DNA from: an uncultured Erysipelotrichaceae bacterium
Lineage (GTDB): Bacteria > Bacillota_I > Bacilli_A > Erysipelotrichales > Erysipelotrichaceae
Length of the DNA stretch: 33,264 nucleotides
Assembly: GCA_900320455.1 (NCBI GenBank)
Contig: ONSK01000220.1
Span: 1 to 33,264 of the forward strand
Direction: 5' to 3'
The notes under the pieces: model-generated
What the model saw: only the letters and a program-made list of their open reading frames with translations
Databases searched by the model: none
Told to the model about the DNA's origin: nothing
Made by a program: the position numbers and the translations under genes
Part shown: in pieces, positions 11,610-15,254 of the stretch
Layout: the number at the start of each line of letters is the position of its first letter
Numbering within the stretch: the stretch's first letter is position 1

Positions 11610-12323
11610 ATGAAAAAACCTTTGATCGCACTCACAGCAAGAGACAAAACAGAGAACGATAACAGAATGTTTATCGACAACGAAAGCTACTATACATATA
11701 TTCAGAATGCCGGCGGAATTCCCGCTGTCATCATGGTCACAAGCGAAGAAGACGCCGAAGAGGCAGCAGAGCGTTTTGACGGACTTCTGATCACCGGCGG
11801 CGAGGATGTGGATCCTGCGCTGTATGGTGAAGAGAACAACGGGAGCTTCCCTGCTCCGGCGGATATCGACGCTTCTGATGCCATGCTGTTCAGAGCATTC
11901 AAAAAGGCAGGCAAGCCGATTCTCGGCATCTGCCGCGGCATTCAGGTCATCGCAGCCTGCGAAGGCGCAAAACTGATCCAGGATATTCCTACATACAACG
12001 GCGGATCCCATTACCAGTCACGTCTTGAACCGCCCATCAGCCGTGAGAAGCCGATGCACTCCGTAAAGATCTTCCCCGACACATTCCTTGCGGATATCTT
12101 CGGTGAGACAGCGGAAGTCAACTCCTTCCATCACCAGGCCCTGATGACGCTTCCCGAAGGCTATACACAGGCAGCGGAAAGCCCGGACGGACTGATTGAG
12201 GGAATGGAAAAGGACCAGGTCACAGCAGTGCAGTGGCACCCTGAGCGCATGGTCCTTGATGAAAAGCATCTTGAGATTGCGAAGCACTTCATCAACAGAT
12301 GCATTACTTGGCAAGACCGCTGA
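11610..12323 (+). CDS. Class I glutamine amidotransferase-like hydrolase, PuuD type (peptidase C26)
   Basis: This 237-residue protein resembles gamma-glutamyl-GABA hydrolase, which releases glutamate from gamma-glutamyl conjugates. The catalytic triad is visible: nucleophile C108 in ILGICRGIQV, and His and Glu in the AVQWHPE motif near residue 205. DGLLITGGEDVDP near 58 forms the oxyanion strand region, and SFHHQA is also typical. ATG 11610 was chosen because GGAGA lies 9 bases before it and the residues further upstream are not family-like; a longer reading from 11514 would run through the likely promoter. No other putrescine genes are nearby, so the substrate may be another gamma-glutamyl compound. 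Its 3' end overlaps the convergent HAD gene by 20 bases. Confidence 0.88.
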   Translation: MKKPLIALTARDKTENDNRMFIDNESYYTYIQNAGGIPAVIMVTSEEDAEEAAERFDGLLITGGEDVDPALYGEENNGSFPAPADIDASDAMLFRAFKKAGKPILGICRGIQVIAACEGAKLIQDIPTYNGGSHYQSRLEPPISREKPMHSVKIFPDTFLADIFGETAEVNSFHHQALMTLPEGYTQAAESPDGLIEGMEKDQVTAVQWHPERMVLDEKHLEIAKHFINRCITWQDR

Positions 12324-13068
12324 GATCCTCAACGATATAATCGGGATGAACCTGATCGCTCATGCCGAGCCCCAGGATATCCTTTCCGCCGGTGACATAG
12401 ACAGTTGTCATATTGAGCAGAAGCGCCGGAACGATGTCTTTCTCAAAATCTGAACCAACCATGATTACCTGATGCGCCATGACCTGCATATACCGCAGCG
12501 CCATGCGCATCATTTTTTCACTTCCCCTGCCGAAATCAACAGCGGTTTCTCCGGATGCGGCTTCCAGCATCTTCACGACAGCGCCGTTGCCGATCTGAAT
12601 GATGCCGTCGCTCTTTACCCGCAGCCTGTTGTCCACACTGATCAGATCTGCGCCGCAGATGATGTGATAGACAGCTTCTGAATATTCCCTGTATGTCATA
12701 TTTTTTTCAAGACCGACAAACAGCAGCTCGGGATCGCGGTTGTCAATGATATAGCCGCCTTTTTCCAGTGCAGCCTTGATGGCGGGAGAACCGATATAGG
12801 CAGCTCTGTTCTTCGCCGGCGAATACATGATCATCCAGTCAACCGCTGCCATGACGCCGGTGTAGATCTGATCATATGTCACATGGGAAAAGCCTGCCTG
12901 CATCATTGCCGCAGCAATCTGTTCATTTGTTCTTGCGCTCTGGTCGGTAATGATCAGATACGGCATCTGCATCTCCTGCAGCTTTTCCAGAAACAGCACG
13001 GCACCGGGTCTTGCGGTTCCGCCTCTGATCAGTGAATCCAGTTCGATAAAATAGTACCCTTTCAGCAT
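12304..13068 (-). CDS. HAD-superfamily (NagD-like) protein with degenerate active site
   Basis: From ATG 13068 this is a 254-residue protein with the NagD/AraL-type HAD layout: motif I near residue 9, a cap domain, and a C-terminal VIMVG...D motif IV. Key catalytic residues are changed. Motif I, normally DxDGT, reads ELDSL (nucleophile D replaced by E9, G12 by S, T13 by L). The GKP lysine region reads FGRGSEK. Motif IV, normally GDxxxTD, reads GSDFEKD. The frame is intact, so this is probably an expressed pseudo-phosphatase rather than a broken gene. GAGGT precedes ATG 13068; a GTG at 13101 would add eleven residues but lies at or before the predicted -10. It is divergent from the metallophosphoesterase-like gene. 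Confidence 0.82.
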   Translation of the reverse strand: MLKGYYFIELDSLIRGGTARPGAVLFLEKLQEMQMPYLIITDQSARTNEQIAAAMMQAGFSHVTYDQIYTGVMAAVDWMIMYSPAKNRAAYIGSPAIKAALEKGGYIIDNRDPELLFVGLEKNMTYREYSEAVYHIICGADLISVDNRLRVKSDGIIQIGNGAVVKMLEAASGETAVDFGRGSEKMMRMALRYMQVMAHQVIMVGSDFEKDIVPALLLNMTTVYVTGGKDILGLGMSDQVHPDYIVEDLSGLAK

Positions 13069-13087
13069 GTTATACCTCAGCCTTTTC

Positions 13088-13121
13088 ATTTTAGCATCCA
13101 CACGCCCGGTTGTGGTATGAT
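13088..13121. promoter_or_regulatory. Compact divergent promoter pair for the two phosphatase-like genes
   Basis: Minus strand: TGC plus TAAAAT (13088-13096), leader about 13 bases to ATG 13068. Plus strand: TGG plus TATGAT (13113-13121), leader about 13 bases to ATG 13141. The two extended -10 elements are only 16 bp apart, so the polymerase footprints overlap and the genes could be mutually exclusive or jointly controlled. Confidence 0.5.
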
Positions 13122-13140
13122 GTTGTGCAGGGAGTTTGAT

Positions 13141-14190
13141 ATGTCCATTGACAGAGAAAAAGAAAACCAGCGGAAAAACAGGTCTCTGCCTGCCTCCGTT
13201 TATATTTATATCGTATCCGCGCTGCTTGCGGTGATCCTGTGTATCGCAGGTCTGCTGTACTTCGATTCCGTAAAGTTTGCGCCGTCACGCTTCAACATCA
13301 GACGTGAACAGCTGTCCTCTGATAAGATTCCATCCCAGCTGGACAATGTGAGGATCCTGTACTTCTCCGATCTGAAATACGGTTCCTACATGGATGATGA
13401 AAGACTGCAGAAGCTGTCTGAGAGAATCGGTCTTGTCAATACCGATGCGCTTGTCTTCGGCGGCGACCTCTTCGACGACACAGCCGCGCTGCCGGAGAAT
13501 CTCGAACAGCTGACGGCCTTCTTCAAAAACATTGACGCACCGCTCGGCAAATTCGCGGTGCTCGGCGATACCGACAGGCTTTCGGAAAAGCATCTGGCAG
13601 CCGCGACGGAAGTATTCAGAAACGCAGGCGTTGAGATCCTTGTCAACAAATCCGCGTTCCTGCACAATCACGGTTCGGAATCCGTGACGCTTGTCGGTCT
13701 CGACAACGGATTGAACGGTCTGCCGGATCAGGCAGTCGCGTATGAATCCGTTTCCCCTTCCGCCTATACGATCACCGTCTGCCACACACCGGATACCGCT
13801 GATTCCGTGCGCGGTGAACTGACTGACTGGTTCCTGGCAGGACACAGCCTCGGCGGGCAGGCATACAACCTTGTCTCTTATGAATACACACCGGCAATGG
13901 CCGTGCAGTATTTCAGAGGAAAGCATGAACTGAATTCCTTCACGCTGGATATTACTTCCGGAACAGGAACAACAGGCAGAGATATCCGCTTCCTGAGCGG
14001 AGCTGAAATTGTTCTCTACACCCTGCATCATGAAGAAGCTTCCGCAGCTCCTGTCATCACGCCGACACCGGATGATGCATCCGTAACACCGGAAGCGGAA
14101 ACACCTGAAGCTGAAACTCCGGAAGAAAACAGCTCACAGGAAACACAAACACCGGAAGAAACGAAAGAAGACTCAGCTCCTCAGAACTGA
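13141..14190 (+). CDS. Membrane-anchored metallophosphoesterase-like protein with degenerate metal site
   Basis: This 349-residue protein has a charged N-terminus, one transmembrane helix (about 20-41) and an extracellular calcineurin-type domain (about 70-300), so it resembles YkuE-type phosphohydrolases. Several metal ligands are lost: DxH reads DLK (77-79), GNHD reads GDTD (142-145), and GHxHGGQ reads GHSLGGQ (234-240). GGDLFDD (107-113) and H215 are kept. Binding of two metals in the usual way is unlikely. The last 45 residues are an acidic Pro/Glu/Thr-rich tail, probably disordered. ATG 13141 has AGGGAG in front; an ATG at 13117 lies inside the -10 element. A terminator overlaps the end of the gene. 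Confidence 0.85.
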   Translation: MSIDREKENQRKNRSLPASVYIYIVSALLAVILCIAGLLYFDSVKFAPSRFNIRREQLSSDKIPSQLDNVRILYFSDLKYGSYMDDERLQKLSERIGLVNTDALVFGGDLFDDTAALPENLEQLTAFFKNIDAPLGKFAVLGDTDRLSEKHLAAATEVFRNAGVEILVNKSAFLHNHGSESVTLVGLDNGLNGLPDQAVAYESVSPSAYTITVCHTPDTADSVRGELTDWFLAGHSLGGQAYNLVSYEYTPAMAVQYFRGKHELNSFTLDITSGTGTTGRDIRFLSGAEIVLYTLHHEEASAAPVITPTPDDASVTPEAETPEAETPEENSSQETQTPEETKEDSAPQN

Positions 14191-14198
14191 GTCTTTTT
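14170..14198 (+). terminator. Terminator overlapping the ends of two convergent genes
   Basis: GACTCAG (14170-14176) pairs with CTGAGTC (14187-14193) around a 10-base loop, followed by TTTTT. The stem contains the stop codon of the metallophosphoesterase-like gene, and the loop contains the stop codon of the convergent gene. Confidence 0.8.
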
Positions 14199-14885
14199 AA
14201 TAATCTGATGATAATATTCCACGGCTGTTTCATCCGCTTCCGGAGGAAATATGAGCACCGGAATGTCCGTATCGGGATATGCACTGTCCCGGCACGGACA
14301 GAGCTGGAGTTTACTGCTGCCAAGCTCAGCGCAGAGAGATTCCGCAAGTCTGCGTGCCGCTTTGGTTTCAATGCATTTCTTTGAAGAGGCAGAATACAAT
14401 GCGCTGCCGTTTTTTTCTGCTGTTTCCCGCAGGATCCGCAGTGATTCTTCCAGCAGTTCATCAGACTGCGCTTCCATGCGCAGTCCGTCGTTCAGCTGCG
14501 GCACATACATCAGCGCATCTTCCGGCGCGATCCGCATGAGTCTTCTGACTGCCGCCTTCTTCAGAAACGGCGTTTTCAGCATCCGCTGTATGCTTCGCGG
14601 AATGCTTTTCAATGAGCGCGCATATCGCTCTGCGGATACATAATCATACGGCAGTTTCCTGATTGCATCGGAGAGCCATGCCGGAGTTTCAGTTCCTTCT
14701 GCAGTAAGTGCAAGAGCGGCTGAGGCAGCTCTGCCGCAGTACATGCGGTAAACCGTCTTTGTGCCGTCTGTCCGTTTCATTCCGCCTTCACAGAAAGCAG
14801 CTATGATTTTCATACCGTCCGCTTTCAGCATCTCTTCCGCTTCTTTAAATGCATTTGGTATCTGGGCAGCGTTCTGGGTATACAT
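14181..14885 (-). CDS. Hypothetical protein, unknown family
   Basis: I do not recognise this protein of about 234 residues. It is basic in the middle (ERYARSLKSIPRSIQRMLK) with an alpha-helical, charged C-terminal half; no signal peptide or membrane helix is evident in the part shown. The ATG at 14885 (preceded by an in-frame TTG) has no ribosome binding site. The same frame stays open for 23 more codons back to the amber stop of the upstream gene, and those residues (for example the YEREN and KRIAL segments) look like protein. The true start is therefore unclear; the gene may be the second half of a product split by a TAG. It overlaps the convergent metallophosphoesterase-like gene by 10 bases. 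Confidence 0.6.
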   Translation of the reverse strand: MYTQNAAQIPNAFKEAEEMLKADGMKIIAAFCEGGMKRTDGTKTVYRMYCGRAASAALALTAEGTETPAWLSDAIRKLPYDYVSAERYARSLKSIPRSIQRMLKTPFLKKAAVRRLMRIAPEDALMYVPQLNDGLRMEAQSDELLEESLRILRETAEKNGSALYSASSKKCIETKAARRLAESLCAELGSSKLQLCPCRDSAYPDTDIPVLIFPPEADETAVEYYHQIIKKTQF

Positions 14886-14957
14886 CAATGCGATCCGTTT
14901 TGCGCTGGCGCCGTTTTCTCTTTCGTATGCATGGAAGAACTGCGGACCGGTTTCATT

Positions 14958-15254
14958 CTAGCTGCATACGGTCAGAATGCATTCTTTTTCTTCCCTGCCT
15001 TTCTGCAGAAGAAGGATTCCCCAGGTTCCTTCCCGTATTTCAAACTGCAGTTCGGGATTCATGCATCGGATTTTGATGCTTCTGAGCAGTGCGGTGCGGT
15101 TGATTGGCCAGACTTTCTTTTCTTCCTGTTCCTGCTTCTGAATGATCTTTCCCGGGGCATGGAGTTCCCTGATCGGAAGCAGTCCGTATAATCTGCAAAG
15201 CTGATATGCCAGAATCAGAAACAGCACGATCAGCACTATCTGTACTGCGTTCAT
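14958..15254 (-). CDS. Small membrane protein, unknown
   Basis: This 98-residue protein begins with a hydrophobic helix (about 4-22) and continues with a charged segment rich in Gln, Glu and Lys, then a strand-rich part ending at a TAG. I do not recognise a family. Its ATG overlaps the stop of the methyltransferase gene (ATGA), so it is translationally coupled to it. The reading frame after the TAG remains open and leads into the next gene without any shift, which raises the possibility of one longer protein interrupted by a stop codon. Confidence 0.6.
   Translation of the reverse strand: MNAVQIVLIVLFLILAYQLCRLYGLLPIRELHAPGKIIQKQEQEEKKVWPINRTALLRSIKIRCMNPELQFEIREGTWGILLLQKGREEKECILTVCS

Follow-up and report, generated by a model that had tools for sequence, protein, structure and literature searches.

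The window examined here, a stretch of 33,264 nt from an uncultured Erysipelotrichaceae bacterium, carries two adjacent, divergent genes encoding phosphatase-like proteins of unrelated fold, a HAD protein and a metallophosphoesterase (MPE), and it raises the question of whether both have ceased to be enzymes, by which route, and what they have been kept for. Bacterial pseudophosphatases are rarely studied. Our reading, which we consider probable, is that the HAD and the MPE form a conserved pseudoenzyme couple, built in two steps, whose members would now be non-catalytic binding proteins. Throughout, the genus means the GTDB genus holding Bulleidia extructa (family Erysipelotrichaceae), with more than 40 genomes, many of them Solobacterium-labelled rumen/gut assemblies.

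Organization of the Locus

The degenerate HAD-IIA (NagD/YutF-like) protein of 254 aa is encoded on the minus strand at 12307..13068, and the degenerate membrane-anchored MPE of 349 aa on the plus strand at 13141..14190. Both frames are intact, as the preliminary description of this DNA had it, and the ORFs span 12304-13101 (-; from GTG 13101 at the upstream end, with the stop reaching to 12304) and 13117-14190 (+; opening at ATG 13117). The conserved starts are shifted relative to these spans, being ATG 13068 with GAGG upstream for the HAD, rather than GTG 13101, and ATG 13141 with GGGAG upstream for the MPE, rather than ATG 13117. The two conserved starts are separated by a divergent intergenic stretch of 72 nt (13069..13140), compared with 11–81 nt in orthologues, and a promoter scan of this gap found no match to the sigma-70 consensus. 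The MPE is laid out as an N-terminal hydrophobic helix, a COG1408/YaeI/LpxG-like domain and a C-terminal Glu/Pro/Thr-rich tail; this low-complexity Thr/Pro/Glu tail (14035-14187) is found in only part of the genus and is very variable in length.

A Peptidase C26 family (gamma-glutamyl hydrolase-like) gene with an intact catalytic Cys-His-Glu (11610..12323, +) is convergent with the HAD gene, overlaps its 3′ end, and belongs to a recurrent C26-HAD-MPE trio. The neighbours at 14181-14888 and 14958-15254 (-) are predicted to encode proteins of 235 and 98 aa, which match no Pfam/NCBIfam family.

Catalytic Residues and Fold of the HAD Protein

Motif I of the HAD (13027..13047, -) reads IELDSLI in place of (D)LDGT, with E9 at the position of the nucleophile Asp, and motif IV (12433..12459, -) reads VGSDFEKDI in place of VGDNLETDI, with the GD Asp replaced by S206 and D211 retained. 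Both losses had been pointed out in the preliminary description, which overlooked an additional one, that of the motif III Lys (12526..12528, -), where canonical orthologues have GKP and the window has R181 (GRG). The residues retained (254-aa numbering) are D11, the second Asp of motif I, T41 of motif II and the distal D211. Set against HAD-IIA enzymes, the protein has E9 in place of the DxD nucleophile, R181 in place of the motif III Lys and S206 in place of the motif IV Asp.

The fold itself is preserved. Pfam Hydrolase_6 and Hydrolase_like both score above their cut-offs, and the structure model (pLDDT 94, pTM 0.90) aligns to NagD-type structures with TM values of about 0.86–0.89, the C2 cap being shared. 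The window HAD has fold, length and C2 cap in common with the NagD/YutF-type HAD-IIA phosphatases (PDB 2c4n, 3pdw, 3epr, 4kn8), but it lacks their nucleophile, Lys and GD Asp and falls below the curated cut-off of the NCBIfam HAD-IIA profile (TIGR01460, 100.15 bits), scoring 77.1 bits (71.1 in the sister sequence) vs. 118.7–131 bits in canonical relatives. On the grounds of enzyme chemistry, since the catalytic residues are gone, the HAD should be unable to form an aspartyl-phosphate and presumably serves to bind a ligand or another protein. An intact HAD-IIA paralogue as a replacement was rejected, because a strong second HAD-IIA (173–220 bits) occurs in only 3 of 40 genus genomes; none is above the TIGR01457 cut-off.

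Metal Site, Fold and Membrane Anchor of the MPE

The MPE was expected from the preliminary description to lack ligands in three motifs, and it does. DLK replaces DLH in motif I (13369..13377, +; His to K79), DTD replaces NHD in motif III (13567..13575, +; Asn to D143, His to T144), and HSL replaces H[ST]H in motif V (13843..13851, +; second His to L237), giving the strings DLK, GDTD and GHSL. Thus, four of the eight metal-site or catalytic residues that define calcineurin-like metallophosphoesterases (DxH, GD, GNHD, H and GHxH; COG1408/YaeI/LpxG/UpsH) are replaced (K79, D143, T144 and L237; 349-aa numbering), and D77, D109, H215 and H235 are retained.

Family membership is still recognizable from profiles and fold. 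The best NCBIfam profiles are LpxG (3.9e-23) and YaeI (4.9e-15), both under their curated cut-offs, and the Pfam Metallophos score is 20.4 against a cut-off of 21.5. Most of the model between about residues 50 and 300 is confident, with a weak stretch at 241–250, a hydrophobic helix before and a disordered Glu/Pro-rich tail after, and the domain aligns to Mre11 and GpdQ with Z of 16–18 over 190–200 residues. A sequence search of solved structures with the MPE profile gave no match, whereas the fold search did. In the window's subclade (K79/L237), metal site 1 has probably been lost, and the protein would then be a membrane-tethered binding or scaffold domain. The positive-inside counts are near equal (2.89 vs. 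2.63 K/R) and favour neither orientation in the membrane. Of the related MPEs, YkuE is exported while the UpsH domain is cytosolic, so that physical contact of the MPE with the HAD is conceivable.

Distribution and Synteny within the Genus

Co-occurrence was counted in 35 same-genus relatives, the window genome being additional. The HAD and the MPE are both present in 28 of the 35 and in the window, always adjacent and divergent, with 11–81 nt between their starts, and both are absent from five. One species (G003) contains the MPE without the HAD, the HAD alone having been deleted, and in one HAD-only case (G033) the MPE side ends at a contig edge. In G003 (L079/L155), the genus's only clear case of a HAD-less MPE, the C26 gene lies directly upstream of the MPE, about 25 nt away and in the same direction. 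The C26 gene, convergent with the HAD, often completes the trio even where the outer neighbourhood differs, and its Cys-His-Glu, which served as an internal control, is retained in every aligned copy. The checks proposed in the preliminary description therefore came out in its favour on both co-occurrence and conservation of the substitutions, as the degenerate state is kept in all genus orthologues of both genes. Chance and sequencing or assembly error are ruled out, since identical positions are altered in dozens of independent genomes.

In Bulleidia extructa and its kin (L164, L226, L227), which have reduced genomes, the HAD is extremely diverged, scoring about 130 bits against the genus profile and sitting on a branch of 2.59 changes per site; its frame is open and it adjoins the MPE.

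Evolutionary History of the Two Losses

All 54 distinct HADs of the genus lack D1 and the Lys, while all 39 orthologues sampled from other genera of the family are canonical (D,D,T,K,D,D). In the HAD tree, a single branch divides the genus from the canonical set (SH-aLRT 100), and D1 and K each change once, so that the HAD lost catalysis in a single event at the root of the Bulleidia/Solobacterium genus. Since then the former catalytic columns have varied freely overall: identity at D1, D3, K and D4 is 0.16–0.27 in the genus vs. 1.0 in canonical sequences, while the motif II Thr/Ser and the final Asp/Glu are each retained in 50 of the 54; Arg is common at the Lys position in the window's subclade. 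What has taken the place of the catalytic residues is not uniform, and for the genus as a whole the data do not support a new function conserved at the former active-site pocket.

The MPE has a different history. No genus copy is intact, N3 and/or H3 being altered in every one; D1 and D2 are invariant, H4 and H5 nearly so, and the His of GNHD is gone almost everywhere. Nearly all degenerate MPEs have Asp or Glu in place of the Asn and retain D1, D2, H4 and H5, and His1 is replaced either by Asp/Glu, with His6 usually kept, or by Lys/Tyr/Gln, with His6 usually lost. In the MPE tree, rooted on intact paralogues, the starred branches force at least three changes between the intact and degenerate states. 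The window genus and its g22/g24 kin have one loss in common (support 99/97). The divergent HAD neighbours of the degenerate MPE are still canonical in g22/g24 (L159, L161, L191, L192), as is the HAD that adjoins a degenerate MPE in L207, and both genes are canonical in L193, where they are adjacent, and in L166, L168, L197 and L198, where they lie about 1–2.4 kb apart. One degenerate MPE group belongs to another family, its MPE following DegV and RNase J with no HAD nearby.

Judged from the two trees, the decay of the MPE predates that of the HAD, and the order has seen it at least three times. Because degenerate MPEs adjoin canonical HADs in g22/g24 and pairs with both genes canonical exist, the sequence of events ran from both intact, through a degenerate MPE beside an intact HAD, to both degenerate. 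The ancestral HAD would have been a cytosolic sugar/cofactor-phosphate phosphatase of the NagD/YutF type, and the ancestral MPE a membrane-anchored metallophosphoesterase of the YaeI/UpsH/LpxG type. The MPE was the first to change, losing its GNHD catalytic motif, with Asn going to Asp and D77, D109, H215 and H235 being retained; at the base of the genus, the nucleophile and the motif III Lys of the HAD then disappeared, after which selection retained both folds. Simultaneous loss of both activities is ruled out by this order on the HAD and MPE trees. The preliminary description had pictured two folds losing catalysis side by side; on this point it has to be revised, as the losses were separate and the older decay, that of the MPE, is also seen beside an intact HAD or where no HAD is present.

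The closest MPE relatives in another family of the same order (L081-L096) are degenerate (G[DE]xD, GH[ST]xGG) and form part of a conserved DegV - RNase J - MPE operon; RNase J-linked MPEs with a canonical GNHD were also found (L176, L179, L180). A pattern in which Lys replaces the DxH His and Leu the final GHxH His (DKDDxHHL) was observed at two distinct places in the MPE tree, in L182/L185 (Longicatena/Amedibacillus) and in the window/L002 subclade, suggesting that Lys may have replaced a metal more than once.

Selection and Competing Explanations

Both genes are under strong purifying selection. Pairwise dN/dS between close species is 0.016–0.20 for the HAD and 0.020–0.21 for the MPE, compared with 0.125–0.15 for canonical HADs, and the C26 and TrmN neighbours are similar. 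The preliminary description had named intact orthologues in close relatives, together with relaxed selection here, as what would speak against it; intact orthologues do occur in the sister genera, but relaxed selection was not found. That the two genes are decaying toward pseudogenes is accordingly extremely improbable. The HAD has indeed evolved faster after its loss than canonical orthologues (mean column identity 0.35 vs. 0.51; long stem of 0.63), and one subclade has near-random residues at the former catalytic positions, but the frame is open in every one of the 54 distinct HADs across deep divergence and dN/dS is about 0.02–0.2 for both genes, in the range of C26, TrmN and canonical HADs, which rules out relaxed selection, and the models of both proteins fold with high confidence. 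With catalytic residues lost, fold conserved and purifying selection acting, the HAD and the MPE resemble the scaffold-type class represented by VPS29 and PcrP.

It is unlikely, in our estimate, that only the HAD is a pseudoenzyme and that the MPE still works as a phosphodiesterase through a remodelled metal centre (Asp/Glu for the site 1 His, Asp for the site 2 Asn), the window MPE being a further variant that uses only site 2. The near invariance of D1, D2, H4 and H5, the replacement of N by D or E rather than by arbitrary residues, recurring on separate branches of the MPE tree, and the change of H1 to D or E with H6 retained in most genus copies would all fit such an enzyme, and because the replacement pattern is non-random, many genus MPEs could bind two metals (D1, D/E at H1, D2, D3, H4, H5, H6) and may be active in an altered way. 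It is countered by the almost genus-wide loss of the GNHD His and by the window and its sister, where H1 is K and H6 is L, so that site 1 is without two of its four ligands, the corresponding His being essential in UpsH (PMC11898649). Independent losses with no shared role, in which old synteny explains the adjacency and the two pseudoenzymes serve separate functions, is an explanation whose chances we put somewhat short of even. Degenerate MPEs also occur in RNase J operons that lack a neighbouring HAD, many other genera of the family have adjacent HAD and C26 genes without an MPE, and the species that retains the MPE without the HAD also counts against a shared role; yet the trio remains together after a move to a different chromosomal context, five genomes lack both genes, and the rates of the HAD and the MPE covary after controls, with a partial r of 0.61 (n = 12) when LeuS, TrmN and the adjacent histidine kinase are controlled for and of 0.34 (n = 28) when C26 is. 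Given the small sample sizes and the linkage of the genes, the covariation is only suggestive. The two members of the couple may be functionally connected, and the shared binding or regulatory role put forward in the preliminary description is plausible: retained non-catalytic roles fit the data, while the evidence that they are shared is indirect, namely linkage, the five joint absences and rate covariation.

A more specific form of the couple, a two-part non-catalytic phospho-ligand sensor jointly regulating envelope/carbon metabolism, is decidedly less likely than the general one and rather improbable. The tethered MPE domain would bind lipid-linked phosphate intermediates, ligands of the UpsH type, through a one-metal site where Lys can substitute for the missing metal. 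The HAD (Lys to Arg) would hold a phosphometabolite without cleaving it; the same re-tooling of the MPE would have arisen repeatedly in Erysipelotrichales.

Comparison with Known Systems

Pseudoenzymes as such are already known, but a literature search found no report of the HAD-MPE pair or of a degenerate HAD-IIA clade, and both are apparently unreported. Two unrelated phosphatase folds would here have become pseudoenzymes stepwise at a single locus. Living relatives preserve the intact, the half-degenerate and the fully degenerate stage, so that naturally occurring proteins allow a direct test of how an enzyme turns into a non-enzyme. The automated labels HAD hydrolase and metallophosphoesterase are probably wrong for a whole genus of gut/oral bacteria, and the latter probably for much of the order too.

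UpsH (YpbG) of B. subtilis, an enzyme of the COG1408 type, crosses the membrane with one segment and has its domain in the cytosol; H202 and H204 of its H-x-H are both needed, each Ala mutant being null (PMC11898649). UpsH, YaeI and LpxG share the single membrane segment with the window MPE. UpsH is active and needs both His, whereas the window MPE has H-x-L, with L237 corresponding by motif to the second, and no GNHD. For the HAD, a precedent is offered by PcrP of Pseudomonas aeruginosa (PA2803 subfamily), which is described as a HAD-superfamily protein that lacks catalytic activity and binds protein partners (PMC12632274), much as proposed here for a HAD repurposed for binding. PcrP belongs to a phosphonatase-like subfamily, its partners are known, and it is not known to have an MPE neighbour, whereas the window HAD is of the HAD-IIA/NagD type and adjoins an MPE.

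The retromer subunit VPS29, a protein scaffold with a metallophosphoesterase fold, an altered metal site and no phosphatase activity (PMC3101248, PMC7539009), is a precedent for the role proposed for the MPE, here on an UpsH/YaeI-type membrane anchor. VPS29 was not among the fold-search matches listed for the MPE domain, which is no evidence against the analogy. Phe63 of VPS29, at the former metal site, is presumably comparable to the F in the GDFD of many genus MPEs. VPS29 is eukaryotic and soluble and weakly binds two metals, whereas the window MPE is bacterial and membrane-anchored, and the bridging Asp, which is Asn in VPS29, is retained in the window MPE, where other ligands are lost.
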